A DNA stretch of 64,000 nt, from contig NC_049995.1 in the NCBI RefSeq assembly GCF_000003815.2, positions 3,607,896 to 3,671,895 on the forward strand, written 5' to 3'. This document shows positions 11,901 through 63,585 of the stretch, in pieces (within the stretch, counting starts at the first letter, position 1; each line of letters begins with the position of its first letter). This stretch comes from Branchiostoma floridae. Its lineage: Eukaryota > Chordata > Leptocardii > Amphioxiformes > Branchiostomatidae. Below the pieces are notes generated by a model. The model had not been told where the DNA came from. It did not search any database and was given only the letters and a program-made list of their open reading frames with translations. Position numbers and translations under genes: made by a program.

Positions 11901-14900
11901 CTTTTTGGCGTACCAACACCTGTAGGCAAGATGGGAAATGATATGGTATCAGGCTAGCCCCTGACGCGTCGCGTGCTCTCAGATTACTCTCCAGAACAGA
12001 AAAAGCAAGGATCTTAGATCCTAAGATTCTCTTAGATCAAGAATTCTCTTGTGGTGGGACCGCGTAGCGCAGTGGGACCGTGTTCGCCCCGTCACCGAGA
12101 GGTTGCGGGTTCGAATCCGCCTGCCGTGTTACCGATCTTGTGCCCTTGGGAAAGGCACTTTACACGGCTTTCCTCACTATACTCAGGTGAAAATGAGTAC
12201 CTAGCTTCGGCTCACGGTGATTTACATAATTCACCCGGACGGGAGACCAGGCGCATATGAAAGGGTATGTCACCCCGTAAGGGGCGGTATAACCCCGTCG
12301 TGTGTAAACATGTGCGATCACGTCGACCGATGATGTATGTTCGTCTGTATCTCTGTGGATCTGCCGCTACCAGCCCAAAGCTGCCTAGGCAGTTCCGTGT
12401 AATGAGTTGTATCATTGGCAAATAAATAAATAAATAAAATAAATAAATTCTCCTATATCCTATAAATGTATATTGTTTTACTTACCGATGATCCTCGGCC
12501 GGCTGACGCCTGGCTTCCCGCCGTAGTAAGTGACGAACAGAACCGTCATCATGCTTCCAACATCGGCGGCGCTGCTGATCAGACCAAGCTGACGACTTTG
12601 AAGGCCAAATCTGACAAGAAATTGTCCCAAAATTAATAAAAAGTATATGCATGACCGTCTAGATATCGTTGCAGTTGAAAGAATGTGGTCTTAAAAGTGA
12701 GTAAGCTTGTAGCAGCCCTCGTCACGGTTCACGGTTCGTTATCATGCTTCCGACATCGGCAGCGCTGCTGATCAGACCAAGTTGACGACTTTGAAGGCCA
12801 AACCTGACAAGAAATCGTCCCAAAATTAATAAAAAGTATATGCATGACCGTCTAGATATCGTTGCAGTTGAAAGAATGCGGTCTTAAAAGCGAGTAAGCT
12901 TGTAGCAGCCCTCGTCACGGTTCACGGTTCGTTATCATGCTTCCCACATCAGCCGCGATACTGATCAGACCAAGTTGACGACTTTGAAGGCCAAACCTGA
13001 CAAGAAATCGTTCCAAAATTAATAAAAAGTATATGCATGACCGTCTAGATATCGTTGCAGTTGAAAGAATGCGGTCTTAAAAGTGAGTAAGCTTGTAGCA
13101 GCCCTCGTCACGGTTCACGGTTCGTTATCATGCTTCCAACATCGGCAGCGCTACTAATCAGACCAAGTTGGCGACTTTGGAGACCAAACCTGGCAAGAAA
13201 ACGTCCAAAAAAGTAAATAAAAAGTACATGCATGACCGTCTACTGCAGCTAGATGTCGTTGCAGCTGAGAGAATGCGTTCCCAAAAGTGAGTATTACTAA
13301 GCTTGTAGTAACCCTCGTCACGGTTCATAACTGGAGTACATTTTCTGATTATTTTGGGACGGCGCCACCTACATCGGCTATAAGTAGCTGTCAGAATCGA
13401 TCCAGCCATTGGTTGATTCTAACCCTGATGATAGTGTCTGACAGACACCGAAACGTTGAAAGTAAGTAGTCTCCAAACAGACCCTACGGTGTCTTAAAGA
13501 TAGTATCAAAGCTGGCAAAGGAGTATAGCCGGTCAAAGGGAGTCAAACTGGCACCGTCAAAGTTGGCAAAGGAGTATAGCCGGCCAAAGGGAGTCAAACG
13601 GGCACCGTCAAAGTTGGCAAAGGAGTATAGCCGGCCAAAGGGAGTCAAACCGGCACCGGAGGCGGTGCGGCTATATATAGTCCTTTACCAGCCTTAAACA
13701 CATATCTAAGGCATCATAGGGTCTGCTTGGAGACTAGTTAGTAAGTTAGTTAGTTGACCAGAGTTACCAACCTAGGATTGATGTGTTCAAAAATTGTACT
13801 TTCCCAGAACTATCGTAGAGTGGAATTAGTTATCACCAAGTACAGTAGGGGCATCTTCTCTGGGTAGTTTTAAAGAACGCTTGCAGATAGATGTGCAAAA
13901 GTTAGGTGTGATGGGTCGTTCGGTGTAATATAACCAGCTGCTGCCGCGCCGCGTGCCTGCGAAGCTGGTGTGTTACGCCGAACGGCGGTTATACCGGCTA
14001 TATAGATACAGATACTATCTCGGTTGTGTTTGAAGAGCCTTACTCTATGAGTATTTTTAACTCTTTACTGATGACCTTACCGTTTCTCCATGGTGGTCAG
14101 CATCCCGACGACATAAGAACCTCCTGACAGATACGTCATGATGACCAGACACCAGCACGGCAGAAACAGCTTGGGATTGGCCAGGCGGGCAGCCCATCTG
14201 AAAAAGAAACAAACATACATCTAGTAGTTTAATGAACAATTAGTACTAAAATCTAAGATACCTCTCCGTATAATATCTATTAGTGCGAGTTTTTTTGTGT
14301 GAATTTTTGTTGTAGTCATTATTGTGATTTTCTTGCTGAATCTGTTTGAAACTTTCTTACTGACTCCCAAAAGTCGCTGGTATTGATGGGTGTTTAACTC
14401 CCATACTCGTTCGCAGTAGTGCTATGTAGAGAAAGCAGCATGTACTCTCAAAGCAGAGGTTGAAGAGGAACATCGTGAGAAAAAGGTCACGATTTTCCCC
14501 ATCAACCTCTGCTTGGAGAATATATGTACCATTCTCATTCTCCTGCACCAAGTCTTTGGTATGACTCGGCCGTGGATCGAACACACGGCCTACAGGTGGG
14601 GTCACACCTGCGTATATATTTAAGTCCGTATGAGGCGCGCATGGGACGGGAGTATTTACCTCCACCAGGCTCCACAGGTCGTTGAAAAAATAATAGAAAT
14701 TGGACAAACGTAAACAGGTAACATGTCAGACGAGTTTGCTGGGTCGCTAATCATACTTCTCGGTCAGGTAGCTCATGTTATCTATCTATATTTGTCCAAT
14801 TTGTACTATTTTTCCCGCGACCTGTGGAGCCTGGTAGAGACTAAGAGCGTCATACGCACCTCAAACGGACTTGAATATATACGCACGTGTGACCCCACCT

Positions 14901-25758: not shown

Positions 25759-28700
25759 TTACGCTAGAGGCACGTGTTCTGCGTCTCCGAACTTCTTCTT
25801 CCAGATGTTGGCCCTGAGGTCCTCTGTGTCCCTCTCTACATCATGGTGTGGATGGTGATGATGATGATCGTGTCCAACCCTGTCTAGCGAGTGCATGGAG
25901 CCCGTCAGCGACCCCAAAGACGCGGCAATGTCCTGCTTGGTCACGCCACCGTTCTTGCTCTCCAGAGGCTTGTTCTGCTCCCTCCTCTTGAAGAGGTAGG
26001 CGGCGAAGAGGATCAGGAAGCCGCCTAGAACCCGCAGCGCTGTGATGAGTCCGAAGAACGCGTACCTGTTCTTGTCCAAGTCGTATAGGAGACAAGCTCC
26101 CTGTTGGCCGCAGTTTGTGGACCACAGTCGACAGGTTGTGTCGATCAAGGCGCCGAAGTAGATCGGTGACGGGATGAAACCTGGAAAAGGGGAAACAGAG
26201 TTTATAAGGTTAAAGTCCTTTCCACACTATATGGGGTAAAGGTGGGTGCACATCATAATTTTCTGGGCACTTGGACCACACAATTGTCGAATCACACATT
26301 GACCTCGACCACAAATGCTTTCAAAGCTACTGCTTTGTTTTATAAGAACATTTTTGGCTCTGTTCTATATGTACCGTCTAACAAGACTGTTTTAAGAACA
26401 GACTTTTGGTCCTGTACTTCATATCACCGATGTTTTCAGGATCGACGACTTACCAAGAAGCTTCATAATCACGGACTGCACTCCCATGCCGAAGGATTTG
26501 GTCTCAGGCGTCAATGCCCTGTAAGGAAGAAGAAAAAGCACAATGTGTATCCGAACAATAGGCCGAGACTCATGCAATAGTTTCGTTACGTTTCCAGTTT
26601 TACACAAATGTAGCACATCATAAACATGCAAATTATGTCCCAAACATGCAAATGTATTCATAGTTACAGCCTTAACTGCCATGCCGATAGGCTTCAATCT
26701 TCAAGCAGATCTATGAGTGGGAAGACAGTATCCATCCGTCCAAACAAAGGGCCACTCGGATGGATACTGTCTCCCCTTCCATAGATCTACTTGGACATCT
26801 GCATAAAAAGGTTTCGTGTCAAGAGTTAGTTAAAAACTTAAAAGAAGGAAAACAATATTTGTACAATATGTGTCTTAAACATGATGAGTTGAGGTACATT
26901 GTAGAATATAAACCTATATTGGTTTCCAGTTTGTACACAAATGCAACACATTATAAACATGCAAATCATGTCCAAATCATGCAAATAGTATATTTATAGT
27001 ACATATGTGAACCTCAATGTCAGACCGTCACCATGATATAAGAACTATGATATACATAATGTTTTCTATTGTTTATGTTTGCGCCATATATACATTTATA
27101 TGCATTGTGCAATATGCCCTGCCTTTAACGTAATCCTGTTTACCTAAGGATGGAAATGATGACTGGAATAAACCCGAACGACGAGGCGAATCCGCCGACT
27201 ACAAAAACGGCGATAAATGCGCCCCACTTATTACAGTCGGTGCGGCATGGAAAACCTATGGCGAAGTTTGGCATCCCCTGGAATCCGGGAGGTCCATTTT
27301 CCGGCATTCTAGGACCCATTCCTGGAATGGGAGGCGATGTGGAATTGGCGTTCATAGATGGGGTACTGTCCGTTGCGTTCGCGTTGCTGCGAAGTTTTTG
27401 CGGACTTGCCGTCGCCCACATCGGGTCTATGTGAGGCTTCTGACTGTCTTGTTTTTCGTCTCCGCCAGGTGGAGCGCCTGCACCTGACTTTCCGAATTTC
27501 TCAGCCATCATCTTCTTCAGAACCTCTGGTGGTAAGTCGGCAAGACAGCCGCAACGGGAGAAATTCTAAAGGAAAACGTCGAGCCATCAACGTATATAGT
27601 ACTACACGATCTAATAGGCAATTGGCAATAACAACACCAACCTCCGTCACTTGTTGAAGGCAGAGAATCACTACAATATTTGATAAGATATATTGTAGCA
27701 AAATTTGGAAAAAAATGTAGGATCTATGATTTTGGAATTTCTGAAAAGACCGGAAGTTGACTGTACATAAATTAGTTGTGTTAGCACCCTTAAAAAGGAA
27801 CAACTCACAACGGAGCTTGGTTGTTGCCAATGCTTGCACTTTTACCATTCTGAAGATTTCTTGGCATTTTTACCTCCAAACATCCATGCCTTTGTTTTGT
27901 CACACAACAGTGTTTTCATTCCACTCTAATCTTAGCAACTTTGTTGCATTGGTAAAATCTTCAGAATGATAAAAGTGACGATGATCATGATTCTTTGTCA
28001 CGGTACTGCCTAAAGACCAAGGGTAATCTACTTTACCTGTTCACTTTTTGATAATCTACTTAACTTGTTCACTTTTTAAGATAATCATTCATTTTTGAAA
28101 GCTAATTTTCACTCAGTTTTATTTGTCTCCTTGATTTTTGCTCTTAGTCGAAGCAAACTAAACCTGTTTGTAATATCTGTACACAACTCAGCAGTATCTT
28201 ACCCTTGCCCTTTGGTAGCACATTTGAACAATCAAGGAGGTTATATATCTCTATATAACCTTCTTGGAAAAATAAAAATGATAAAGCTTTACCTCAAACA
28301 ACAGACGATGACAGGGATAAACCCAAACGACCATGCCGTTAGCGACACCAACAGTGCAATTACACCCTCGATAATTTTGTCGGGACATTGGTTTTCACAA
28401 ATGCCCCAAAATGCACTGCGGTCGCTACGACCGCCATCTTGGATTTCGTGTGTCGACATCTGCACTACCGGAGGGGTCACCAAGGTCATCTCCATTCCGG
28501 GTTTAATTCCTGCTCTAAGAGTCGCCCAGGAATCCTCTATTCCAGAGTTAATGTCTAAGGACTCCTTTGGCCCACCACCGTTAGAAAGTTTGTGAGCAGT
28601 GTTAGTAGTTGTTAGTGGGAGAGAGGAAGCCATGCAGGCGCAGCCACTGAAGTTCTGCATAATGGAGAAACGATACATGCAAATAAAGTTAGGCGTGTAA

Positions 28701-30210
28701 TGCCTAAGCGTGAAAGTCATGCATTTAGTTCAAGTTAGAAGCTTAGTACGTGTTACCTATTGGACATTGCAGTTAGTGGTTAGTGTTGATTCTTTATTAG
28801 GAAAGCATCAATGAGAGCGTTGCCTTACAATGAAATGTTGCTGTAGATGGTGTTAAATGAGTTGATTTGCATACGGTGAAGTCAGTCATTAGATATAAAT
28901 GTAGCTGTTTTTCTGTCCGAAGATTTCATCCACCAATCACAGCACAAAACATGATCGTTCAGCACACCTTTAAGTATACGAAAGGTTCCATTTTTTCACT
29001 CAAGTAAAGAAACAGAAGCCTTACGCATTCTTTAAGGTGTGCCTAAAGATGAAGAATAATGCTATGATTGTTTCTATGATCTTATAATTGGGCATCTAAG
29101 CTGTTTTACTGACGATTTGGGGAGACTTACCGATACGACGATCCCCATCGGGTGCATGAAGCTCTGCTTCTCGGTGCAGCCTGCGTGGCAGCCCGAGAAG
29201 TAGGTGACGCCGTCCGACCCACAGACCGGGCTGTACTTGTCCAAGTTGCAGTTACAGCCAGTGTTACAGGAGGAGAGCAGGTTGATGTCTCCGTTCTTGA
29301 GGTAGGGAACGTTTGGCATTAACGGGCTGTGGTAGAAGAAATACATTGTTAAATAACGTGTGATGGCAAATGAAATGATGACCGAGGCGGGGGACGTTAC
29401 AGGCTACCTTTAGAAAGACGTGTCCGTGAGGTCGATATCAATTGGAGATTTAGCTGCACCATGGTATCTAGTCTGTACGTGTACCACAAACTCTACTGTA
29501 ACTGGCCTCTCCCCGCAGAGGAGGCCGTTCGGATGTTGGGCGAGCTGCTATAAGCGAAATCTAAGGTATGGTCCAAGTAGGGCTGACCAAAATGTAAAAA
29601 AAAAAAGAATTTAAAAGAAATAAACATCTAACTTCGTAGATATTTAGGTCTATTAGTGTATTTTGTCGTCCTTATTCCATAATCATTGCTATTTTAGTGT
29701 CAAATTCAAGTGAAAAGTTCGCCGTTTCCAACGCCCAAATCGGGTGCCGATACCTTTTGTAACAGTCTGCCCAATTAGGGTCCAGAGCCGTGGCGCGAAA
29801 GTTAAATTGCACAGCCAATCAGGCCTCGCTTGGGAATGACGTCATGGTACCCACCTGTAGCCATACGGAATGGTGACCCCCGCCATGGGCGGCTGTGGGC
29901 ACGTCAGGAAGAACATCGGGATGCTGATGAGGGAGGAGATAAAGACGGAGGCTGCTGACATGTACAGGCACTGCACGGGAGTCAACTTGAACTTCTTAAT
30001 GACGATTCCTGATCCGACGATGCCGAACACGGTGGACGGCAACATCACTATTCCTGGATAAGGAACAACGGTAAGTGGTTGATTCTTTGATTGATTCATG
30101 TATTGATTATCTAATTGATCAATCAATGAGTATGTGAGCGACTAAGTAAATAGTAGAGAGAAGTAGAGTGAGGTAGACTACGTCGTGAGTGTGTGTACGT
30201 CGTTGTGTAC

Positions 30211-30242
<32 letters not shown>

Positions 30243-33200
30243 GAGAGAGAGAAAACGTGTTTGTGTGTGTTTGTAAGAGTGTAAGCTAATGAGTTGGTGA
30301 GTGAGTGCGTGAGTGAGTGAGAGAGCGAGTGAGTGAGTGAATGAATGAGTGATAAGTGTGTTGTGTGTGTATGACAGTAAGCGTGTAGTGAGTGAGTGAG
30401 CGAATGGGTCAATGATTGAAGAAGTGAGTGAGAGGGAGGGAGGAAATTGGAAAGAGGGAGGGATTGAGTTAATGAGGCATTGATGTACCTACCCAGTAAC
30501 ATGTTAGCCTGTGATTTGGGGACTCCGAACTGCAGCTCCAGGTACTTTGGCATGAATGAGAAGGCTCCGAATGTGGAGACCATGCAGACCCCGGACAGGC
30601 ACAGGACCAGGAACACGCCGTTCGTCAGGACCTCCTTCAGACTCTTCGACATGCCTGGAGCAACAAGAGATCACACCTCCGTGAAATATTCAGAGTTTCG
30701 ATTACATTTGAATTCGTCGATGAAGGTATATAATTAGACAAGCAAGGTTACCGTAATAAGATTTGCCATGGCACCAGAGCCACTGACGAAAGGTGGATGG
30801 TACTTGAAACGTCTGGCCGTTTCCAAGATCATATCTGGAAGCTTGAGTAATTGCTATCTGGTCTGTCTTCCATTGACACCATCTTGCCACTCACTTCCTG
30901 CTTTCTCTATCTTTTCTCGTCGACATTCCTCTGAAACTCAGGCCTTTCACTTTAAGGCTACTCGCTAGCCTATTCACCAGTCCATTTAGGTAGCGTGTAG
31001 TCAATTGTCTGCAGTCCTTAGAATAAGACGTTAAGTCGTAGCCCACTGTTCATTGCACATGTCGAAAAGAGCTAAGGGAATTTCCCCGGTGCAATGACCC
31101 TTTTAAAAACTGTACATAGAGTTCGTCCTGTCGCTGTCACGACTAGTGGAAGATTAGCTCTTCAGTTAGCTTAAATGTATCGAAATCACAATCAATGTCA
31201 CATACCTTTGATCTGTTTCCATAGTCCCTTGGCTGGGTCCAGCAGGGGCGGGCCCTTGTCCATGTCCATCATGGGGAGCATCTTCTTCTTCTCGCTCTTG
31301 TCTTTCTTCTGAACAACGTCGCTGTCTGGGGGTCTCTTCAGTGCTGAGAAGACAACATTTTATCAACACTGTTACTCATAAAAGTAGAGACATTCAGTAT
31401 TTCCAGGACAAAAGAAAATGTCATATAAGTTGAATCAAACTTTCTACTTGACACTCCACTGTTTATTTAACAATGTATATTGATTGTTTTGTTCAGTACA
31501 ATGTTTCCTCAAAGATTGATTCAACTTCTATAACTGAATTCCTGAGTAATCTGCACAAACGTAATGGATGAAGCCATACTGCAAGAGGTCAAGTAAGGTC
31601 AGAGCACAACAATCTGTAACCGTAGGGCATCATGTACCAGGCTAGGGCGAGATGCACCGGAAAGATAGCCTGGGTACCATTCGGAAAGTAGTTCGCTCCG
31701 GCGTTTATTATACACCATATACAGTCGCTTCTAGCTCTGACATTTATTATAAACTATATACAGTCGCTTCTCGCTCTGACATTTATTATAAACTATATAC
31801 AGTCGCTTCTAGCTCTGACATTAAGTATACACTATATACAGTCGCTTCTCGCTCTGACATCTATTATACACTATATACTACATACAGTCGCTTCTCTGCT
31901 TCGAAATAATTATAACGGGGGAGACAACTAGTGAGGTTAGTAATCATCTGTACTTTCCCCCTTCATTTTGTAATGGAGAACCTTGAAAAAGAAATAAATA
32001 AACTTTCATCATAAATACGAAGCACAGCAGTTATCGATACATGTTTTGAATGAACACGTACCGGGTGGGAAAAAGAACATGGGGAAGGCCGTTGCCAGAA
32101 GTCCTGCACCACAGATGAAGAAGCCGATCCACCAGGCCCCCACCCACAGCGGGTTGGCGGGGGTCAGGCCCAGGGTCGCCGGGTCGATCCCCTTGTCCAT
32201 GTCGACGTAAAATTTCACGGCAAAGGAACTCAGGACGAAGCCGAGGGGAGGGCCGAGTCCAAACACGATGTAAGATGTTCCTGTAAAAAAAAAAAACAAG
32301 TTGACAAAACAATCAAGACGTAAAACTTCACGGCAAAAGAACTGAGGACGAAGCCGAGGGGAGGGCCGAGTCCAAACACGATGTAAGATGTCCCTGTGAA
32401 AATAAAAGTTGACGAAAAATTCAGAAAAATCAGAAAAGACAAAATTGAATACTAGTATTGAACTTGTATGTCAATCAGCTAAATTACTAGTACTCTACAG
32501 ACTGAGTACATCATGGATTTGCGGTACGCACATACCGCCAATACTTTGTGTTGACAGTTAAGAAAAAGTAAGGGACTTGTTTAAGCTACAATACCTGCTA
32601 TAAAACATAAAATCCCAGAGCATACTAGATATTACTTTAGTTATCCACACCATATTCTTCATACGGTACATGATAACTGTTAGAGTTTAAAGTCTCTTCT
32701 AGCATCTAAATCATTATCGCTAACTTTTATCAACATCAATACTTATCATTGAAGTTTTGTTGTGGTTTTTAAATGCTGAAAACAACACAGTCACGTTTTT
32801 CCTGTCTTTTTGTAAGTACTTATCTGACAAGATATCATTCGTATGCAGAACTTTGGTTGACAGCATGCAAATTAGGAAATTCGATCTCCAATGCCACGTT
32901 CTGAATTCATAGGTGTACCTCAGTCAGAATGCAGTATTGTCCTTGTGCATTCTACCGATAATTAAGATTGACAGTTTGTGTATATCGATTACAACTATGA
33001 CCCAGGTAAAGAAGGACAACGGCCGAAAAGACGTTTGCGTAAGTTGACTTTGACGATCATGACTGGACAGTTTTAGTGTCCGAGCGGTCATTGACACCTA
33101 AAGATCCCGAAAGACGATTGAGAAAACAGTCTTACGGAATCTGCTAAACAGTCTTACTTTGACATATAAGATGATGTCCAAATGGCCTTTGAATTACACG

Positions 33201-44600: not shown

Positions 44601-45736
44601 CTTGAAAAAAGGGAAGAAATGTATTCCCCCCGAAGTTGCGTGTGTATCAGAGCTCAGAACACCTTACAGGCAGAAGACTGGGATTAAAACCCGCAACCTG
44701 TTGAGCAAAATTTCTATCCGACAGATGTTTACACAAGACGCTTTAAACACGAGTGACCACGTACCAGTCTACGCGTACAATGAAAGTTTTCTTACTGGGT
44801 GACGAATTCTGAAGAAAAATGTCCCTTTAAGATTGGGAACACTTCCCGACTCAAATTTGTCATATATATAGAAAACCATTTTCCGACTCCCAAAACAAGG
44901 ACAACTTACGGTATGTACAGTACCATCCTAACATGACATCTCTGAGAAATTTGACAGCTATTTTCACATGTAGGTGCACGTGTACTACAAACAACACCTT
45001 ACAATTATTTTGAGAAATTATTTGTATCGTCAAAAAGCTCCTTGGTATCGTGAATTAAGTCGAACACAAGATTGCCCAAATAAGTCACAAAAGAGTGTCC
45101 GTTTGTATTGGTCTTCGCAGCATACTATGGGAGACACTCATTGAATTCACCTGAACATTTCAATGACATGGTTTTCAAAACCTGTCGTAATAACAAACAA
45201 TGTCGTAATAGCAAACAGTGCCCTGTCCTTGAGTCGACTGCACACCTTTCTAGTTGCATACAATCTAGCTCATAAACAACACCTAGGACTCGAACTCTTG
45301 ACCTCACGATCCAGGGACAATGTAGCTATGCAAAGTATAGGCGCCGTAAAGCTACCTAAACTTACACTTATAAAGTAATACTGATACATATATTCGTATA
45401 ACAATGACAAAAATGGACCACGTGTTTGTCGTTGGTCATCGTACGGTTTGATTGAGTTTTCAAGCAGACTGTGACCAAGGAGCTTTTCGTGACAGAACCA
45501 ACCACAGACAAGGATCTAAGCCAGCATTTTTCGTAACAAGACAGCTAAGATTAGCGGACACAGACACGACTAACTCAAGAATGCCCCAAGACTGCGATCG
45601 TGCGACGATCGCCCGACGTTTTTAAGAGAATTTTTCGTCTTCCGCCGAAGTTTTAGTAAATGAGTAACGTCGCGGCCATGACACTTCCGTGACTTTTCCA
45701 AACAACTTTGACAGCGATATTCTAAATCACCACTGT
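38607..45736. other. Gene B upstream region with two assembly gaps
   Basis: No protein gene is supported. N runs occupy 39114-39213 (100 bases) and 40367-40665 (299 bases). Several good minus-strand donors could end non-coding 5' exons of gene B, for example GTAAGTAGC just below 40983 and GTAAGCC near 42846, but I cannot choose between them. A ~160-bp tandem duplication (gtgatttacggtgggagggg) lies at about 43619-43860. Confidence 0.5.
40666..40828. mobile_element. Inverted-repeat element at gap edge
   Basis: aggcaaaaatcgatcggacg at the left is mirrored by cgtccgatcgatttttgcct at the right, with arms of ~37 bp. It starts exactly at the right edge of the 299-base N run, so the hairpin may have contributed to the gap. 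Confidence 0.7.
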
Positions 45737-48700
45737 TAGTCCATGGGCCAGACCCCCAAATTTTACATATCAGTACCACCTGAGGGGGCAAATTTTCCTT
45801 ATGATTTTTAGGTAGTAGGGTATCTGAGGGATATATTTTGATATGATAGCCGTCGCAGAGTGGTAGCTTTGACCCGGCTATCTGCCCTTGACCTTTTGAC
45901 CCCGATCTGGACCACGCCCTTTGATATGATTATACAAATGGGTGTGTAAATCAATTAAACAATAATATTTTCAAACGAAACTTGCTGGGCTGATACAAAA
46001 TGAACCAAGAATTACAGAAAACTTAATTTCATTTCAATATCTTGATCCTATGAAGAGTTATGAGTCTTTGAATGATTATTTTTGAGCAAATTTTGGATGA
46101 AAAATGTTAATTTCTACTTTTCAAAGGCTGACATTTATTCCGATCTCACATTTGACCTTTTTTCAAGCTTTTATCTGCTTTGTTGTATCATTCCCTGCAT
46201 TCTAAAGTTTAAATCATGAAAATCCTCCAGTTCTATCTAGAGATATGAGTACCTAAATACGTACACACCTAAAGGCCTTGTGTTGGGGAAACCGTTGCTA
46301 GGGCCGTTGCTATGGAGGCACTGGGCTGCAATCCCAAGCAAAATGCAGTACAAAGCCTAGTCTTTTGATATCTTTTTATGTCCTTATACCTTCCAACATA
46401 TGTAGAGAACATGTTCAAGGTGTCATATGTAAGGTAAAGTATAATTCTAGTTTAAAACTAAATAATTTTTTTATTTAAGTTAAATAGCATTATCATCCTA
46501 CATGTATAGGAGACCTTGCACGAGTGTGCATACTATTTCCCACAACTATGAAATGACACTTGACAGTGTTACATGTGTAGCAGGCACCGATGACAACAAT
46601 GAAGGGAGTATGAGGCAAGATTCATATGAGCCTGCTCTGGATACTGCGTATCAAGAGCTGTTCCAATTCATACGGAATGATCTGTTCAGCAACCCTAGGG
46701 TACTAGTACTACGAATGACAGACCTCTCCTCAAGATAAGTGGAGTCTATGAAGTCTCTTGGTATAGAGCAGATCAAAGACTCCACCAAGAAACACATGCG
46801 GCGGAGTTTAGAGAGCGAGTTTTCTAGTACCATACACTTATTTTCTGATGACAACCTCAGACTGCCTGTCTATCCTGACAATCTATCTAGATGCGGCCTT
46901 GTCAAAGCGAATCAGGCTTTACAAAAGGAGCTGAACACTCTTAAATCACTCCTTAACAAAGATGTTGTTGCCAAGGCAGCCATGTTGCTTAGAGACGACA
47001 TAAGAAAGCAGGATGTTCCTCAAGCCTGGCCACCGGTGATCACAGAGGAGGACCAAAGTAGAGACATCATCCCTCCGTCAGTCGTCAAATTCTTCTGCTA
47101 CTTGCTGACAGGTGGTTTCAACAATGCCGATGCATCACAGAGGGTGGAACGACTTGTGACCTCATTCGGATATGACACTGTGTATGCTGTAAGCCAGGGA
47201 AAAGTGAAAACACCCAAACACATCACTTTGGCTTTTTCCATCAAGTGACTGACAGGAAACGTGGAGCTTGTGCAACTGCTGAACCGACTTGGTCACAGTG
47301 TTTCTTACAGTCAGATGGAGGAAATCAGTACGGCAGCTGCAGTTTGCCTTCAGAAGCTGTCAAGTGGTGATGGTGACATAACCCTTCCAAGTAACTTGCA
47401 TAATCAGGTTTTCACAACACTTGCCTGGGACAACATCGACCGACTGGAAGAGACCATAAGCGGTGGCGGGACATCTCATCGTGTGAATGGCATTGCTGTC
47501 CAACCCAAGGTAACAGAGTCCCCTGAAGTAGAAGCCCTCCCTCCAGTGACTAAAACAAAGATATTTTCAAACCAATAGTCATCAGAATGGGATCTTTCCA
47601 TACATGCTGTACACTTCTGGCAATTATCGGAAAACGCTTCCACAATGCAAGTCTCAGGGACCTAATGCCATTGAATCTGGGGTAGTAGCAGAGGGTTTGG
47701 TGTCTGGATTGATGGGCGGACGCAGGTACAACAGAGCAGTCAGGTTCCACAAGCTAGTGTACGAGGCCTTACTCAGGCTTGTGTGGTCAAGGTTTCTGTC
47801 CTGGATGCGTCAGAACCACATGAGGATCTCACTGACCTGGAAGAAGCAACGGAGACCATCGACACCCACACCAATGATGTATCACAACAAGCTTTACTAG
47901 GCATCCTACAGTCAGCAACAAATAACAAAATCATGTGCATGTTTGACAACTATGTCACCACCCTCCGAAGTGAGATCAGCCGTCTCACACAGTATTGGAT
48001 GTCCTACATCGACCTCGTAGAGATTTTTCTGGGTCTCCTTCGAGCAATGAGGGAGGGCGATTGGTTGCTACATCAAGTGCATGTCCATCCGCCAGCTCAT
48101 TACATCCCTTGGTGCTTTGCCTATGACAGGGTAAACTATGCAAGGTACCTGTCATATACTACTATGTACAGATGTCACAACTGCAATCCCAACATCCAGA
48201 CTTGTATGCAGAGTTTATGAGAGGACACTTTTCTGTTCAGATTGGCCACGCAAACCCGTTTGGACGTATTCCGGTTGACCAGACTATTGAGGAGACGGTG
48301 AACAAAGACACGCAAACTGACGGGGGACAGAGGGGTTCAGCCTTAACCACTCAGTTACATCAAAGTACTACCTCACAGCAGAACACAGGAGTATCTACTT
48401 GAAACAACTGAGGGACATGACTAGTGGTGCCAAGAGTAGTAAGTTTTCTCATAAAGATCTACAAACTACACGCATTAGAAGGGATGAAGCCGATGTCAGC
48501 TCATTGGTCGATTTAATGGAGAACAACTGGATCAACCCAATGTCCTCAGAAGAGCCCGACCTTGTCAGCTTGTCCACGGGCAGTGTTGCACCTCCCGACA
48601 TAGTGAAGGATATTTCCGACGCACACCAAATGGGAGAGGACGCCTATCTCTCCTTCCGAAGGAATCGCCTGGAGCAATACCCACCAGAAGTAAAGTTCTA

Positions 48701-51025
48701 TGACAAGCTGACAAAACTAAAACTGAAGACATTCTCCAATATTGGCACTAAGAAGACCAGTGCAAAGGGCAAAACCAAAGTTGTCCTGCAGGCGGACAGG
48801 AACCTGTTCAGGCACATCATACTGATTGCAGAAAGCAGGCAGCTCCGCATTAAAGATGTCCTGACACATCCTCTCGGTCCCCTTCCATGGTCTATTGCAA
48901 AAGCTGATGGCACTTAACGTAAGACCAACAAAGCTGCCCTTGCAAGAGAGCTGGAGAGTCATGTTTCACCAGCAGAAGACACCCCCAGCTCCATCCACCT
49001 GTCCTGCAAAAGATCAACGGCAACAACATAACGTTTTCTGGGCTAGCAAACACCACAATGTCCATAGTTCTAAAGGAAGGTGTGAACAGTCACAGAATTG
49101 ATGTTGTATTTGACGTGTACAGGGACCAGTCCATCAAAGATGCTGATTGTTTCTAGCGTGGGTTCAGTACAGCATCACAGTACAAAACCATAACTGGTGG
49201 ACATCAAGTCAAACAATGGAGAAAGTTTTTGTCCAGTTCAAACAACAAGTCTTCCCTGATCAAGTTTATGATTGAAGAATGGAAGCAGCCAATCTACAGA
49301 ATGAGAGAAACTTAGGAACAAGATGCTGTATGCTACCTGCGAGGATGCCTGCTACAGGTTCACTAAAGATGAATGGGTGGATATTGCGGAGCTACAATGC
49401 TCACAAGAAGAAGCTGACACGCGCCTCCTGCTTCATGCACTCCACGCTGCTGAGTCTGGTTCTGAAGCAAATGTCATCACAGCAGAAGACACAGACATCA
49501 TGGTCATCAGCCTCGCCTTCGCTAAACGTATCCCATGAAGAATACCAGAATGCATTTCAGCAACTGGGAGAAAGCTGGACGATGTCTCCTGATGGCACCC
49601 TGTTCAAGAGGATTGAGCGCTTCACCTGTCAGATGTACGTGCCGTCTACCCCTGTAGCTGACGTAAACGAGATGCGGCACCACTTGTTTATTGCCAAAAA
49701 GGGAAATGTGGAATCAAGTGCACTACCACCGTGCCGAGACTGCCTTCACCTACATGTTAAACAAGCAAACTACCAAGCCGGTATATGGAGGGGGTGCCTC
49801 CAGAACGACCCTCAGGTACCAAGCCCAGTAGATGCAGGATGGAAGTTAGATGAAGATGGTAATCTCTCCATCACATGGCTACAATCACCTCCCGCGCCAG
49901 CTACTGTCCTGGAGCTGCTGACATGTAGCTGCTCCCGGTCGTGTACTCTTCCCTCCTGCACCTGTATTGCACATGGTTTGAACTGCACAGATATGTGTAA
50001 ATTGAAAGACTGTAGCAACAGAAACCGAAGAGGATCTGGACATTGAACTCTCCTCTAGTGATGCTGATGACACATCTAGTGATACTGATGATGAAAAGAT
50101 AATAATCAAATGTAAAGTTGACATGATCATGATAACTGTGCTTGTACATGCCATATTGTGTAAATACTCAATATTCAAAAGGGCATATGGGTTGTTCATC
50201 TACTAGTATATAGGCAAATTTGTTGCTTTGCAGTATGTAGTTACAGCTTACAGCTATGGTTTATGATATGGCATTGCCATGTTATCAAGTAGATAAAGTT
50301 ATTCATTAACTTGTTATTAGATAAACATAATACTCATTAACTCAATATCTTATTGGTCAGCTTATTCTAAACCTGATTACTCTCCCAAAACAAAAGTTTC
50401 TCGACAAAAAAGTGGATTTAGCACTGCATTTAGCTTGGGATTGCAGCCCAGTGCCTCCATAGCAACGGCCCTAGCAACGGTTTCCCCAACACAAGGCCTT
50501 TAGGTGTGTACGTATTTAGGTACTCATATCTCTAGATAGAAATGGTAGATTTTCATGATTTAAACTTTAGAATGCAGGGAATGATACAACAAAGCAGATA
50601 AAAGCATGAAAAAAGGTCAAATGTGAGATCGGAATAAATGTCAGCCTTTGAAAAGTAGAAATTAACATTTTTCATCCAAAATTTGCTCAAAAATTATCAT
50701 TCAAAGACTCATAACTCTTCATAGGATCAAGATATTGAAATGAAATTAAGTTTTCTGTAATCCTTGGTTCATTTTGTATCAGCCCAGCAAGTTTCGTTTG
50801 AAAATATCATTGTTTAATTGATTTACATAACCATTTGTATAATCATATCAAAGGGCGTGGTCCAGATCGGGGTCAAAAGGTCAAGGGCAGATAGCCGGGT
50901 CAAAGCTACCACTCTGCGACGGCTATCATATCAAAATATATGCCTCAGATACCCTACTACCTAAAAATCATAAGGAAAATTTGCCCCCTCAGGTGGTACC
51001 AATATCTCCTCTGGCCCATGGACTA
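45737..51025 (+). mobile_element. 5.3-kb DNA element with ~0.6-kb terminal inverted repeats
   Basis: The left arm (45737 to ~46352) and right arm (~50421 to 51025) are inverted copies, differing at only a few percent of positions by eye over most of their length. The outer edge begins about TAGTCCATGGGCCAGA, with a diverged patch before accacctgagggggcaaatt. A possible 3-bp duplication TGT flanks it, but the exact end is uncertain. The ~4-kb interior carries one broken gene on the plus strand (separate entry). The near-identical arms point to recent movement, while the decayed gene implies that the transposase came from another copy. Confidence 0.85.
46502..50046 (+). pseudogene. Decayed transposon-borne gene: EEADTR/DTD motif protein with CXC-like tail
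   Basis: Open segments 46502-47578 (one frame, broken by TAA 46736, TGA 47246, TAG 47576), 47783-48220, 48172-48402, 48399-48917, 49323-49538 and 49279-50046 read as one protein split by stops and frameshifts. Visible blocks: WMSYIDLVEIFLGLLRAMREGDW followed by FAYDRVNYARYL (near 48130); DQTIEETVNKDTQTDGG (near 48285); LIAESRQLRIKDVLTHPLG; EEADTRLLLHA (49407) followed by EDTDIMV (49485); LPPCRDCLHLHV; and a terminal CSC/CTC/C-rich tail (about 49918-50025) resembling Tesmin/TSO1 CXC modules. I recognise these blocks from uncharacterised repeat-borne proteins in invertebrate and fish genomes. The acidic pairs recall PIN/FEN-like nucleases, which is inference. A conserved stretch after EDTDIMV seems deleted. 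Confidence 0.7.
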
Positions 51026-54000
51026 TGTGACACCAAAATGGGCGAAGGTTACACACAAAAAACACTGACCTGTATTCCAGGTGTCCTGTACACCTGTGTG
51101 AGACGTCGTACGTCACAGGTATCACCCAGACGCACAGGTGTGAAGCCTTGGTCTCACCTGCGTGTACACGGCGTGAGAACGGGAACGGTTTAAAGATCAC
51201 CTGAGCCTTTTGAGTTAAAAGGACGCGCTCGCTGCAACACGTCGGAATGTACCATTCTAGTCAAGGATGATCTTACATTGGCAATTTCTCATAAAACGCT
51301 TGATATGACACATGAAAATTCACTAGTCATACAAATTTTACACTTTCATACTTGGTATTTTTTCTGAGCGCTTTGGCATTTGGTTATACTTTGAAATCAC
51401 CACCATTAAAGGCACATAAACAACTTTTTCATAGAATAACCAAAACGTTTACCTACTCTCCGATACAAAAATGATGATTATCAATAATTTGATGCAAAAT
51501 AAATTTCTTCTATCAATAGAAGTAACGAAACAACAACCTTGTTTAAAACATGTAAAATCTTGTTTTTGTTTGTTCTGTCACTGCCGCTTTCCTCCCTGTG
51601 TTAGAATGGTTTCGTCCTTGTCAATATCCACTTGAATAACCTTGCCCTGAGGCGAGTTCGTGCCACAAGACAAAAGACAGACACCTTTTCCTCTCACCTG
51701 TGCGCGGGTAGACATCTCAGGTAACCTGCACGAAATTTCTACAACTGTCCGTACGGTCAATGACCTTGCGTTTTGACTCGACCGTTCGGCGGTTACTTTT
51801 CAAATGAACTTCAGATGACCTTTCAACGAATGTACATGAACCTCTGTTTAAGATGTCTAGTCAACCTACCGTAATATAATTTATAACATTGAACATTGGC
51901 ACCGATTTGTTTATGAATAAGGCCCCTTTTCCACTAGACGGCGATCACGCTGCGCTCCCACTACGTACTACATAGGATATGTGTAACCTTCGCTTTCACA
52001 CTGGGTATATCATACATAACGTGAAAGTGTGACTGAGAAGACGACAAACACACAAAGTGTAAAAATATTCGTTTCTTTTCTATACAATTCGTTGAGCGAT
52101 CTGTCAAATTTCAGGTCGCAGAGAGCGCGCGGCGAGAGCGCCGTCCTAGTGGAAAGGGGGGTATATACGAGCATGTGATATAGTATCAATACACTGTCTC
52201 TGGTAAGACATTAGTTACTTAATCAACTCAATACATGTTGAAAATTGTCTTGATCCTTTGTAAGGAAGTTGTACCCATGTGTTTTGTTTAAACGTCTTTT
52301 GATCATGCCTTTTACCTGATCAATCTCAATGAGTGCCAATTTCTAAACACCTTTTTACAATAGGTATTTAACGTTCTATTCACTTGGGAAATTAGACGGC
52401 TAATAAAGATTACTGGAAATAGTCTGGGTTTTCAGACCTGTTAGGGCGTAACTATAACGCCGAATCCCCTTCAAAGATCAACTATTATATTATAAAGGCT
52501 ACATGAAGTACTAACTAAATTATATTCGTGAAATCCCTTGAAGATTGCTAATTGAATGCGAGAGCGCGAAAAAAAGATGGGCAACTGAAAACATGATGAC
52601 TGAATTTTCAAAAGACAAACCATAAACGTTTATAAATAAGTATTTATGCAACAAAATATGACATATACTTTTGTATGAAAATATGTGTACGCTGTTAACG
52701 TTACAGTGATATTTCTATTCACGTAGTTCTCTTAGCTCTGACAAAATTCTGAGTTCAAATCTGGCAAAGAAAGTTCAAGTCGCATTCAAGAAGTAGTACG
52801 CTAGGTTCGCCATCTTCTTTTAAGTCCACTAATCGCTATTTAATAGGTGCGACGTAGGGAAATAATCATTTTATTGAGTTGAGTAAATAACCCCTCTTGC
52901 CAAGGACGGCCGACCGACTCCCCTAGCGTACTATTGACTCTATTTGTCCAATTTCTACTATTAACATTACACCACCGATCAGCGGAGCCTGATATATGCT
53001 ATGGGACAATCCGTGCGCTTGGGATGAACTTATGCAAGGCATTAGAGGCCGCACTGCACTAAAGAAACAATGTGACATTTAGTAACGAGTTGTCTAATTT
53101 TGCCAACAGTAACTACCTAGCCATCTGACGGACATGAGCATTGTTCGCCATTTTGCCCTTGGGGCTTTTTCTTGACCCCTCGACCTGACTTCTTCATTCT
53201 TTGTCTACAAGTCATTTAACAAGTCACATCGACTCAGTGCGATTTGTAAACAAGTCACGCATAGTGCCGGTATGCGTAAATAGTACCCGTACGGTCAGTT
53301 TTGTTCATGAATTATCCTACTTTATTCTGTAGCCATGGAGCGAAGCACGTCATATTAGCTGCAGTACCGGTAAGGTCCGCAGACTAGGGTTGGCGCTCGT
53401 AGGTGGTGGTGTTATTGATGTGAAGTTTCTCACAGGTATTACTAAATCAGAGGAGCTTTTTTGTGTCTTACAAACACTGTGAAAAGAAAACATAAACGAA
53501 CTAAAGAAAACGAAAAGATAGGGAAGAGAGAGAAAAGGACTGAAACAAACAAGCGAGCAAGAAACAGAAACTATGTTTAACAGAACACGAACACATTTTA
53601 TGATACACTAAATGTCTTATATCATTCCCAACAACTGATCACATACACCGCAAAACAGAAACAGCAGAAACATATCAAACACTTATAACATCGACATTCT
53701 GGCGACCTTTTCCTGGTATGAAATCTTCTACGTCGTTCGTAATTCCTATTGCAACAAAGAAATGTATTCTTAAATGAAAATACTAGTGAAGAAATGTCCT
53801 ACCCCAAACTGTTGCCAGACATTGCACCCGTCCCTTTTAGATACTACCTAAGTCACACTGACCTTCACCCTACACATGTTTTCCCCACAGTTTTCCAGAT
53901 GTTCGTCAAAGAAGATGAAAACTTGCAGACAAACGATTTCAAGATCCGCCATTTGCAAAATCGTTTAGCAATGCCTATTATGTAAACACTGAAGAAAACT

Positions 54001-54621: not shown

Positions 54622-54788
54622 ATACTTACCTGGCAGAGATGGTACCTTGATCATGCACGGAGGTCCGTCAAGGGCGAGGCCCGACCATTGCACACCCGGT
54701 CTGGGATGACCCCTTCGATTACCCCAAACGCGGGTAACTCGGCTGCGTAATTTATGATAGTGGGGGTCTGCGTTCGCGCTAACCCCCG
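54622..54788 (+). ncRNA. U1 spliceosomal snRNA
   Basis: Starts ATACTTACCTGGCAG, the U1 5' end that pairs with 5' splice sites. Downstream are the U1A-type loop (ccattgcacaccc) in stem-loop 2, a stem-loop 3 (accccttcgattacccc), a near-consensus Sm site (aatttatgatag) and a terminal hairpin (tgggggtctgcgttcgcgct...ccccc). Length is ~167 nt, close to the standard ~164. The 70K-binding loop of stem-loop 1 reads gatcatgcac rather than the usual gatcaygaag. A 3'-box-like caaaagcag follows at about 54799. It is the only copy in the window. It could be a variant gene or a recent pseudogene. Confidence 0.93.
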
Positions 54789-59201: not shown

Positions 59202-62200
59202 CTACAAAGTAGTGACCTTGATCTCCACCTCTTCATCCGCTAGTCCAGAGTCCACGTCATTCGGCGAGTGCGGTGACTTCGGAGGTTTGTAGGAGAACAG
59301 CGCCAAGGCGAACCACATCGTGGACAGGAACTTGTAGATGATCGCGGGAATGAGCATCCATTTGCTGAGCTCGGCATTCTCGTACTGGTAACACGATCCC
59401 TCCTCGCCACACTTCTCCTGCCACAGGATACACGTCTGGTCGATGATCGCACCGAACAGGATCGGGCCGGGAATGGTACCTATGGGGCATAGTAATAATA
59501 ATATAAATAGAAGTTAATTTGAAAGTTCTTGCCCGAGGGCTAATTGCAACATGAAGCATACAGAAGATATAGTAAACATACATAAAGTAATTTGGTATGG
59601 ATAACAATGGTGACAAGTGTAAACAAGTGACTATTCTAACAAGTGACTATTCTAGCAATGATATTGACTGCTGAGATATAATAACTATAGCAGGGTTCTC
59701 CTCAAAATTTTTTAGTATAGTGGAGGGGCTGGCAAAAATAACTTGAACCAACGCGCTGTGCTTTCATGAAAATGGGTTCATTTTGCAATGACAGAAGGTG
59801 TCAACTACGACAAGTATGATATATTATAGTGATTCCTTTGTTGTGAAGTGGCAAAACGACTATTGTCTTGATCATCGCCCATTCACAAGTTTTTGCAGAC
59901 AATGCTAACTGGAAAAGTGACCATGCTACTTGGCACAAAATCTGTGAATTTTCATTGATTTTAGCAAAACTAACCAAGAAAAAAGGGAAGAAACACACTA
60001 AATTTCAAAAGTAGTATAGTGAAGCTGGGCTAGGAGTATAGTGGAGGGCCTCCGTTATTCCATCCTCTGGGGAGGACTCTGCTATAGTGAGATTCAGGAA
60101 AAAAAAAGGAAAGTTTTGGCTCACTGAAGAGCTAATCTTCAATCCTCCATTGGTCATGACAAAGAAGACAGATGCTATCTACAGTATTTACAGGGTCTTT
60201 GTACCAGGGAAATTCCCCAAGCTTCTTACGACAAGCACAGTGAACAGTAGTGGTGCGTACCTAAACTCATATTCAGGTTCAGGTCCGGATTCAGGTCCAG
60301 CAGTTCAGGTTCAGGTCCGGACTTTAAGTCAGGACCTAAACCCATCATTGCATATTATGTGCGCTAGAAAGTTTTCTTTTTTGAGGGGGAGGGGGGATGG
60401 TGCATATAAAATTGCATGTTAGCATGAATGTGAAAAATAAATGCAAATTATATACAGCCAGTGTAAACACGAAATGTTTTTTGTCTTTTTCCAGTGCAAA
60501 TTTCACTGTTTATGGAAGGTTTTAGATGGTTTAGAACAAAAAAAGGGAATATAAGTGACAGATACCTTTTCGCTTGTCCGGACTTGGCTCCAGACATTTA
60601 GGTTTTTTTTGGACTTGGACCTAAACATTTTTAGGTCCAATTCCAAGTCCGGGCTTTAGGTACGCACCACTAGTGAACAGTGGACCCGTCCTAAGGACCA
60701 CAACCCTTTCCGGTAGTTGAATGTCAGGTGAGTGACACAGCTGGAATCGCTTTTGTTGCCTCGAGACGCCATTCAATGACATATTCCTCCTAGATTTTAA
60801 GTTCAATATGGTTGTTACAGACAACATATCACATTGGGCTCCTACTTGTATCACAAGAGCTTCCAAAAATTTAAATGCATTAAGAGTCTGCTACTTACCA
60901 AGGACTCGAACCAGGATCCACTGTATTCCAACTGCAAGTGACTTCTGGGTGTCAGGAACACATCTGTATAATGAAATTCAACAAATTTCAGTTGCGTTTC
61001 TAGCCAACTACATCTAGGTTTTACAGCAAAATGGAAAACATTTGCAGGATGTAAATTGTGGTAGGGAAAAATGGAGTGCTTGCATTGGTCTTAGATTAAC
61101 GTTTGAAACAAGCGGGTAGGCAGGTATAGATAGAAGACGAAAAAGAACATTTTCGCTGTAGTTTCAAGTGCAAAAAGTCACCACAAAAAACACGTACGTT
61201 TCAACCTCCGCAAACATTTCCCTTTAGATTTTACATTTAAACTAGCCATCAGGAGTGAGAATGCAATCCTGGGGATCATCAACCAATCAGAACTGACCTG
61301 AGCGTTGCCGTTAGCGACGGGATGGAGAGTAGGAACATGGAGAGGATGATGATGAAGAGAACACCCAGGAACAGTGGCTGGAGATACGCACATTCTGGCG
61401 TGCACTTTCCTGGAACTGCCGTGGTGAGGTTACCGAACGGGTCAGGCGCAATGCACGAACAGTTGGCGTACATCTGATAGAAGATAATCAGTAAATAGCA
61501 TGTCAATCTGGTTAACCAATCAGCAGTGGGATAAAGTTTAAATCATCCAATCAACATACAGATACTAGACCAAAAGGACCAATGTGGAGAGAAATTCAGA
61601 TTTAAGCTTCCAATCAGATATATTATTCAGATCACATCAGCCAATCATCATGTAGATACCAAACCAAGAAGATCCAATAAGGAGAGAGAGTCAATTTAAG
61701 TCATCCAATCAGCATGCAGCTACTAAACCAAGAACATTCAGGTGAGATTTCATATGATCACATCATCCAATCAGTAAAGATACCAAACCAAGCACATCCA
61801 ATAAGGAGAGAGAGTCACTTCAAATCATCCAATCAGCATGCAGCTACTAAACCAAGGACACTCAGATGAGATTTCCTACCATCATATCATCCAATCAGCA
61901 AGTAGATATCAAACTAAGCAGATCCAATAATGTGAAAGAGTTACTTCAAATCATCCAATCAGCATGCAGTTACTACACCAAGAACACTGGGGTGAGATGT
62001 CCTACCATCACATCATCCAATCAGCAAGTAGATATCAAACTAAGCAGATCCAATAAGAAGAGAGAGTATCTTCAAATCATCCAATCAGCATGCAGCTACT
62101 ACACCAAGAACACCCAGTCAAGATTTCCTACCATCACATCATCCAATCAAAAAGTAGATATCAAACTAAGCAGATCCAATAAGAAGAGAGAGTATCTTCA

Positions 62201-63016
62201 AATCCTCCAATCAGCATGCAGCTACTACACTAACACACATTTCCTACCTTGCTGTCTGATTGCGTGGCCAGATCGCCACATCCGGCGTGACACGGTGAAA
62301 AGTAAACGGTGTTGTCGTTTCCGCAGACGGGGTCATACCGGTCACGAGAGCAATGGCAGTCTGCGTTGCACGTGCTTGTGAGACTAAATGATGTCGTCTT
62401 GTTTCTGTGGTAGATAAACAAACATTGACTATCAAAGTAAACACTACTGGTCAAAAATTTAGAAACAACTGAGTCAAGATCTTTGCTATCAAACCTCACA
62501 ATAATTATAACTATAAGACTAGGCCTGAATGAAAATGATGGCAGTGGATAAGGTAGCATTGCTAAATAAAAAGATTCTCAATGCTTGTGTCAGGGTTCGA
62601 ACCAAGGACCTCTTGGGCCTGAGCCAAACGTGCTGAAGATTACATCACGCAATTTCACACGTAAGTCTCATCTGCTCATGTTTCAATGCCTATCATACAG
62701 CTTTCTCAGAGCTTCTCACCTACATGTATACTGGGTTGTGTAAAAGGAAATGCCAATATCATACTTTCTACCAACCTGATGAAATTATTTTCAAAACTGT
62801 ACAATAACATAGAAACTCACATTCCCATGTAGGAAGTGTTGACGCCCGCAAACGGCACATTGTTACACTGGAGAAGGAACACGAAACAGCCCACCAGCCC
62901 GACCAGGCTGAACGCCAGGCAGTACCGGATGATACCGACACACTTCAGCCTGAGCCGGTTCACCAGGACTCCACCCAATATAGCACCGCCCCCTGCACCT
63001 GGCACCACCACGAAAC
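59202..63016 (-). CDS. Gene C: OATP/SLCO-family transporter, 3' part only
   Basis: Exons equivalent to 10-14 (minus): 63016-62821, 62404-62248, 61473-61298, 60963-60899, 59479-59202 (TAG). All junctions are GT/AG and in phase. It encodes a membrane segment from exon 10, the Kazal-like block CHCSRDRYDPVCGND in exon 11, a short loop-5 exon (YANCSCIAPDPFGN...CTPEC) with membrane segment 10, RCVPDTQKSLAVGIQW in exon 13, and a last exon with IIDQTCILWQEKCGEEGSCY, membrane segment 12 and an acidic tail. Loop 5 has the compact family form, unlike genes A and B, so this is the more distant paralogue. The first nine exons lie beyond the right edge. Confidence 0.92.
59692..60083. mobile_element. Inverted-repeat element in gene C last intron
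   Basis: Ends cagggttctcctc and gaggactctg are imperfectly complementary. Flanking CTATAG occurs on both sides. Internal agtatagtggagg repeats occur near both ends. Confidence 0.5.
60248..60672. mobile_element. hAT-type miniature element (425 bp)
   Basis: Ends TAGTGGTGCGTACCTAAA and TTTAGGTACGCACCACTA are flanked by the 8-bp duplication GTGAACAG (60240-60247, 60673-60680). The interior has ggttcaggtccgg blocks, like 23124-23550 but with different ends, so it is a related family. It lies in the gene C intron before the last exon. Confidence 0.85.
61515..62235. repeat. ~125-bp CCAAT-rich minisatellite, ~5.5 units
   Basis: ccaatcagcatgcag recurs at about 61704, 61829, 61955, 62080 and 62207. 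Each unit also holds catccaatcagcaagtagat and gatccaataag, giving three CCAAT motifs per unit. It fills the intron between exons 11 and 12 of gene C; on the transcribed sense the motif reads ATTGG. Confidence 0.88.
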
Positions 63017-63459: not shown

Positions 63460-63585
63460 TAGCCTGAGTACCATCCTCCATAGTGACTGCTGGCTCACTA
63501 CTTTCGCTTGCTAACCACGGTTAGCAAGCGAAAGTCGTGAGCCAGCGGTCACTACGGAGGATGGTACTCGGGCTAATCCAATGAT
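63460..63585. mobile_element. Foldback element, ~60-bp arms
   Basis: tagcctgagtaccatcctcc...tttcgcttgctaac is mirrored by gttagcaagcgaaagtcgtg...ggatggtactcgggcta around a loop of about 4 bases. A single-arm relative (ggaggatggtacccaggct) is at 38733-38752. Confidence 0.8.

Follow-up and report, generated by a model that had tools for sequence, protein, structure and literature searches.

Introduction

The nuclease of AcademX transposons is of the XPG type. Nucleases of the Rad2/XPG group are defined by an ordered acidic active site and a helix-turn motif after the last aspartate, and in EXO1 and FEN1 the conserved acids have catalytic roles. AcademX is a lineage of the Academ superfamily of DNA transposons, reportedly described by Kojima (2020). 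Academ has been placed among the superfamilies that encode a DDD/E transposase (PMC9587614). AcademX elements make target-site duplications of 3 or 4 bp and AcademH elements duplications of 9 or 10 bp, a difference that seems tied to the encoding of a nuclease or a helicase, respectively (PMC10045372), and the mean length of Academ elements in bivalves is 5,565 bp (PMC10294476).

Here, we describe an element at positions 45737-51025 of a 64-kb stretch of the Branchiostoma floridae genome (contig C17:3607896-3671895, hereafter the window), which is probably a decayed AcademX-type transposon whose intact family protein would be a fused transposase with an upstream domain, a nuclease and a cysteine-rich tail. 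A reading of the DNA letters (the original prediction) had called it an inverted-repeat transposon whose nuclease-like protein was of unclear superfamily. The genome searched was the 513-Mb assembly of 431 contigs; the terminal structure, the 3-bp duplications, the multi-copy family and the profile-level relationship to XPG/Rad2 nucleases reported below were established by computation.

Ends and target-site duplications

The very long, near-identical ends of about 0.6 kb that had been predicted were recovered. Of the 620 bases aligned between the inverted repeats at 45737-46367 and 50405-51025, 600 are identical, and the alignment has a 10-base gap close to the outer end; a second repeat search returned a 601-nt core that is 97% complementary. 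This identity is far beyond chance. When the element was compared with the window by blastn, the matches were the element itself and its two arms only. The flank on both sides of the element is TGT.

Nine elements in which both ends could be placed were tested for duplications: two from the element's own family (the window and C4 copies) and seven from a sister group (L025, L026, L031, L052, L053, L054 and L055). Exact 3-bp duplications were found in eight of them, comprising both own-family elements (TGT in the window, CTA in C4) and six of the seven sister elements (TAA, TTA, TAA, AAT, TAG and ATA). The only exception among the nine was L054, whose unequal flanks (ATA/TTT) hold no 3-bp duplication. 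The copy on C13 has a truncated right end and hence stands outside this count; no right end was found for L056, and the remaining loci were taken with one end only. All 14 ends compared start with TAGTCCATGGGCCAG; in the stretch that follows, left ends differ from right ends, and they do so alike in the two groups. Deviations inside the 15-bp terminus were seen at the ends of L019 and L021.

Copies and relatives in the genome

Used as a DNA query against the genome, window positions 46500-48000 gave 16 matches, the window itself counted, and the left inverted repeat gave at least 45 (40 of 156 candidates scored). Two further copies, on C4 (L042; 6,070 bp) and C13 (L043), have both ends, and these ends share 92-96% identity with the left end of the window element. 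Among the left-repeat matches listed, partial ends lie at C17:10924441 (96%), on C14 (94% and 89%) and on C152 (70%), the outer 146-150 bp are common to 30 rows at 76-77% (the sister group), and five other rows are weak inner matches. Across copies the element lengths range from 5.3 to 7.3 kb.

Three sister elements (L052, L054 and L055, on C17, C8 and C5) measure 5.9-6.5 kb, have inverted repeats of about 1.07-1.2 kb at 96-99% identity, and are 94.8-96.4% identical to one another in the main aligned pieces. Compared with the C13 reading, a query that held both real exons, they matched solely in a stretch representing the translated end repeat. These three appear to be non-coding and non-autonomous, and the analysis identified no autonomous partner sharing their ends.

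When the C-terminal part was used as a protein query against the genome, 51 matches were returned, known copies included, many of them with open frames at 26-55% identity; ten of these loci were read in detail. Related proteins in L063-L067 (contigs C9, C6, C3, C13 and C11) have open frames of 937-2344 codons, and another locus of similar identity has one of up to 2762 codons. With a Nei-Gojobori script, the ratio of nonsynonymous to synonymous substitution rates (dN/dS) over the C-terminal half was 0.154 for L063-L065 (659 codons) and 0.191 for L065-L067 (699 codons). Near-identical pairs gave 0.11-0.49 with few changes, C13-C4 gave 0.53, and L058-L059 was saturated. The element thus belongs to a multi-copy family whose open-frame relatives have evolved under purifying selection.

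Neither the element DNA nor a 65-residue piece of the window protein matched phages, and the same piece gave one weak match to plasmids (E 0.8). Searches of viral contigs with window pieces returned one locus (L001) with phage-like sugar genes, a chance match, and two cyanobacterial matches of 22 residues each in prokaryotic genome contigs were likewise taken as chance.

The gene in the open C13 copy and in the window

Genomic copies with intact reading frames had been suggested as a check of the original prediction, and the C13 element provides an open one. This copy carries an open reading frame of 1,462 codons from stop to stop, then a GT-AG intron positioned inside HAFTG^CDT and a second exon, giving 1,635 amino acids when joined. 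Residue numbers below refer to this stop-to-stop reading of the two exons, which is not counted from an assigned start codon and may be preceded by a further exon.

The single gene that had been predicted between the ends is present in the window, though not intact: it is split over several frames by frameshifts and internal stops, and it has three large gaps relative to C13. C13 residues 248-586, 721-1195, 1206-1385 and 1441-1607 are represented in the window copy (Table 1). About 1.2 kb before residue 248 is missing, a stretch that C4 also lacks. Also lost are residues ~587-720, which include the invariant D706; residues ~1196-1205, where the IDGMA motif carries the first nuclease acid; and residues ~1386-1440, which span the exon junction and the TGCD/GxGK segment. 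Several conserved acidic positions are missing from the window copy, which is a dead relic incapable of encoding a working enzyme. The blocks quoted in the original prediction could all be located, with EEADTRLLLHA starting at about 49407, EDTDIMV at about 49485 and FAYDRVNYARYL at about 48116, as could the cysteine-rich tail.

Table 1. Position of the element's parts in the window, with their strand and the evidence for each.
Feature	Position	Strand	Evidence
Left target-site duplication TGT	45734..45736	.	Identical to 51026-51028
Left terminal inverted repeat, outer 15 bp TAGTCCATGGGCCAG	45737..46367	+	Repeat alignment; 15 bp common to 14 ends compared
Broken gene, C13 residues 248-586	46505..47560	+	89% amino acid identity, internal stops
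Broken gene, upstream DUF6589-related domain (putative), C13 721-979, several frames	47557..48345	+	Alignment to C13
DxxxE motif (C13 D957, E961)	48277..48291	+	Invariant in 7/7 sequences
Broken gene, inter-domain linker, C13 973-1195	48324..48989	+	Alignment to C13
Predicted XPG/Rad2-type nuclease relic, C13 1206-1385: FD ~49109, EEADTR ~49407, EDTD ~49485	49001..49544	+	Alignment, family profiles
C-terminal part, C13 1441-1607, ends in CXC-like tail ~49921-50022	49522..50022	+	Alignment to C13
Right terminal inverted repeat	50405..51025	-	Repeat alignment
Right target-site duplication TGT	51026..51028	.	Identical to left flank

The nuclease part

Conservation of the acidic residues was scored on seven sequences, of which C9 and C3 are closely related; the acids are likewise conserved in an alignment of ten. 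D/E1202, D1243, E1340, E1341 and D1343 are kept in all seven, while D1367, D1369, D1425 and the GxGK turn are kept in six, the seventh (C19) being frameshifted there. The result is an ordered nuclease signature of eight conserved acidic positions followed by the GxGK turn.

We built profile A1 from eight sequences and profile A3 from six, with the C13 exons joined and C19 excluded (it is out of frame after EEADT). Against PDB, the top five rows for A1 were variants of one protein, Exonuclease 1 (E 9.1e-5 to 2.7e-3), which we take to be the human protein, the remaining three rows being designed TIM barrels (E 0.0037 to 0.043). With A3 the same five Exonuclease 1 rows again came first (E 1e-4 to 3.3e-3); the rows after them were TIM barrels (E 0.023 to 0.13) and one ABC transporter (E 1.9). 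Two collinear stretches align to EXO1: VFD...K..ER.RR, and TGCD..S.F.G.GK with SGCDYLSSLRGIG. An upstream profile (A4, from which C3 was excluded) was the sole control of the PDB search, and its best row, at E 0.46, was not significant. In a Pfam scan, one A3 member scored NYN_YacP (E 0.064). NYN domains are PIN-like.

The C-terminal part therefore looks like an XPG/Rad2 nuclease of the FEN1/EXO1 type, a relationship at the level of profiles. Exonuclease 1, FEN1 and XPG have the same order and kind of conserved acids, and the FD...ER.RR stretch and GCD..S...G.G turn of Exonuclease 1 align with those of the element; the element's nuclease differs from all three in being fused inside a transposon protein, in its low similarity and in giving no Pfam XPG match. 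These likenesses support a protein that may work like a Rad2/XPG nuclease, short of formal Pfam membership. The PIN/FEN-like fold proposed earlier for the EEADTR...EDTD region is thus favored by the FEN-type acid series and by the rank of Exonuclease 1 in the profile searches.

The upstream domain and the cysteine-rich tail

The original prediction had counted FAYDRVNYARYL among the blocks of the nuclease-like gene product. By alignment, this block belongs instead to a separate upstream domain, which is linked to Pfam DUF6589 (PF20231) through relatives. D706, G732, H735, D957, E961 and N965 of this domain are invariant in all seven sequences and D907 is kept in six; the invariant acids D706, D957 and E961 would allow a putative DDE core. 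Two of the seven sequences scanned, L073 (E 1.4e-11) and L071 (E 2e-9), match DUF6589 above the Pfam cutoff over about 300 positions each; L068 (E 0.0012) and L069 (E 0.034) fall below it, and L070, L074 and C13 gave no DUF6589 match at E up to 0.1. With the E threshold raised to 1, four of the six A4 members match, and C13 is not one of them. Pfam gives this family no function. No named DDE transposase family or structure, the finding named in advance as fatal to the prediction, was matched by the upstream domain of C13, the A4 members or the relatives in Pfam and PDB. Single-sequence searches of Pfam, NCBIfam and PDB gave nothing usable.

For the tail, the window sequence at ~49921-50022 scored below the cutoff of the Tesmin/TSO1 CXC domain PF03638 (E 0.024, score 15.4). 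Six relatives were compared with the same model: L064 was above cutoff (23.9 against 23.5, E 5.2e-5), L065 (23.2) and L058 (17.4) were below it, and L060, L062 and L061 had no match, the L061 sequence ending before the tail.

Classification

We file the element under AcademX because its 3-bp duplication, inverted ends, nuclease and length fit the published description, and the superfamily that the original prediction had left unclear is indicated by the duplication length together with the encoded nuclease (PMC10045372). It most likely represents a new AcademX-type family within a known superfamily rather than a new type of transposon, an assignment made from the published AcademX descriptions. 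The descriptions consulted mention neither a CXC-like tail nor a link to DUF6589, and the long inverted ends (0.6 kb in the window element, ~1.1-1.2 kb in three sister elements) are a further difference. AcademH bears the same superfamily name but has a helicase and duplications of 9-10 bp (PMC10045372), whereas our element has 3-bp duplications, and no helicase family was matched in the C13 protein (Pfam, E up to 10).

Several results weigh against this classification or against the domain assignments beneath it. The link to AcademX is by description only, and only two of the nine duplications tested come from the window's own family. Taken singly, both stretches aligned to EXO1 are weak; the match derives mainly from the C-terminal one (i-Evalue 0.026-0.041), the FD one scoring 48 to 550, and the Pfam XPG model matched none of the six A3 members at E up to 10. 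In a single-sequence search, a 77-residue window piece holding EEADTR matched KELCH-LIKE PROTEIN 2 (E 6.1e-4) over residues 15-49, EEADTR included; this candidate was set aside because neither family profile, A1 or A3, reproduced the match. Upstream, the DDD/E candidates amount to one clearly placed aspartate (D706), the DxxxE pair and D907 in six of seven, with no other invariant acid between. The relatives above the DUF6589 cutoff are only 16-18% identical to C13, and L068, at 53%, is below it. Finally, a Pfam scan of the C13 protein at E up to 10 returned no family, its tail had no PF03638 match at that threshold, and other searches gave chance-level scores.

In a different division of roles, which is the original prediction in its strong form, the XPG/Rad2-type nuclease would be the main strand-cutting enzyme and the upstream domain a DNA-binding or degenerate RNase-H-like scaffold. 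The nuclease part holds the larger set of conserved acids and a complete DDE triad could not be aligned upstream; both parts also share one reading frame in the sequences read, a biased sample because its members had been chosen for their likeness to the nuclease part. Nevertheless, D706, D957 and E961 are invariant in all seven sequences, Academ is placed among the DDD/E superfamilies (PMC9587614), and exact 3-bp duplications would suit staggered strand transfer better than flap cleavage, so that we regard a nuclease catalyst as unlikely. That the Academ relation was drawn here by description leaves some room for a superfamily outside Academ that independently joined a DUF6589-type domain, an XPG nuclease and a CXC-like tail; a literature search for DUF6589 gave no paper, the single match for PF20231 being an unrelated optics paper. 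Against such an origin, which we consider improbable, the duplication length and the nuclease agree with published AcademX (PMC10045372), and 5.3-7.3 kb is near the bivalve Academ mean of 5,565 bp (PMC10294476). The alternative named with the original prediction, that the ends are a segmental inverted duplication lying by chance around a host gene, is refuted, and its probability is negligible, because the same ends and the same gene occur on other contigs with a common 15-bp terminus and 3-bp duplications. We therefore retain a decayed AcademX-type transposon as the probable identity of the element.

Other features of the window

Outside the element, a complete U1 spliceosomal RNA gene or copy was found at 54622-54788 on the plus strand (Rfam RF00003, 134.5 bits). 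At 25762-32470, three of five minus-strand open reading frames scanned match the OATP organic anion transporter family (PF03137) and are exons of a transporter gene. Tandem arrays lie at 12544-13242 (193-bp unit), 61631-62230 (126 bp) and 5239-5809 (42 bp). In addition, self reverse-complement matches of 74-91% at 14594-14900, 9057-9215, 63460-63575 and 1545-1672 are possibly small foldback elements.

Proposed mechanism and significance

For the intact protein of the AcademX-type family, the DUF6589-related upstream domain would presumably recognize the ends, make the staggered 3-bp cut and carry out strand transfer. The fused XPG/Rad2-type nuclease may remove flaps or open strands at the transposon ends, and the cysteine tail presumably holds DNA. 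A more far-reaching proposal, which we think doubtful, is that the decisive end cuts are the work of the EXO1/FEN-type nuclease rather than of a complete DDE triad, and that DUF6589 is an unrecognized core domain of Academ-type transposases.

With an open C13 gene, defined ends, 3-bp duplications and several relatives in open frames, the family offers a genomic model for how a transposase-like domain and the EXO1/FEN-type nuclease fused to it divide their labor, and a meaning can be proposed for Pfam DUF6589. If the doubtful proposal were true, a flap nuclease of the Rad2 family would have been turned into a transposition catalyst.

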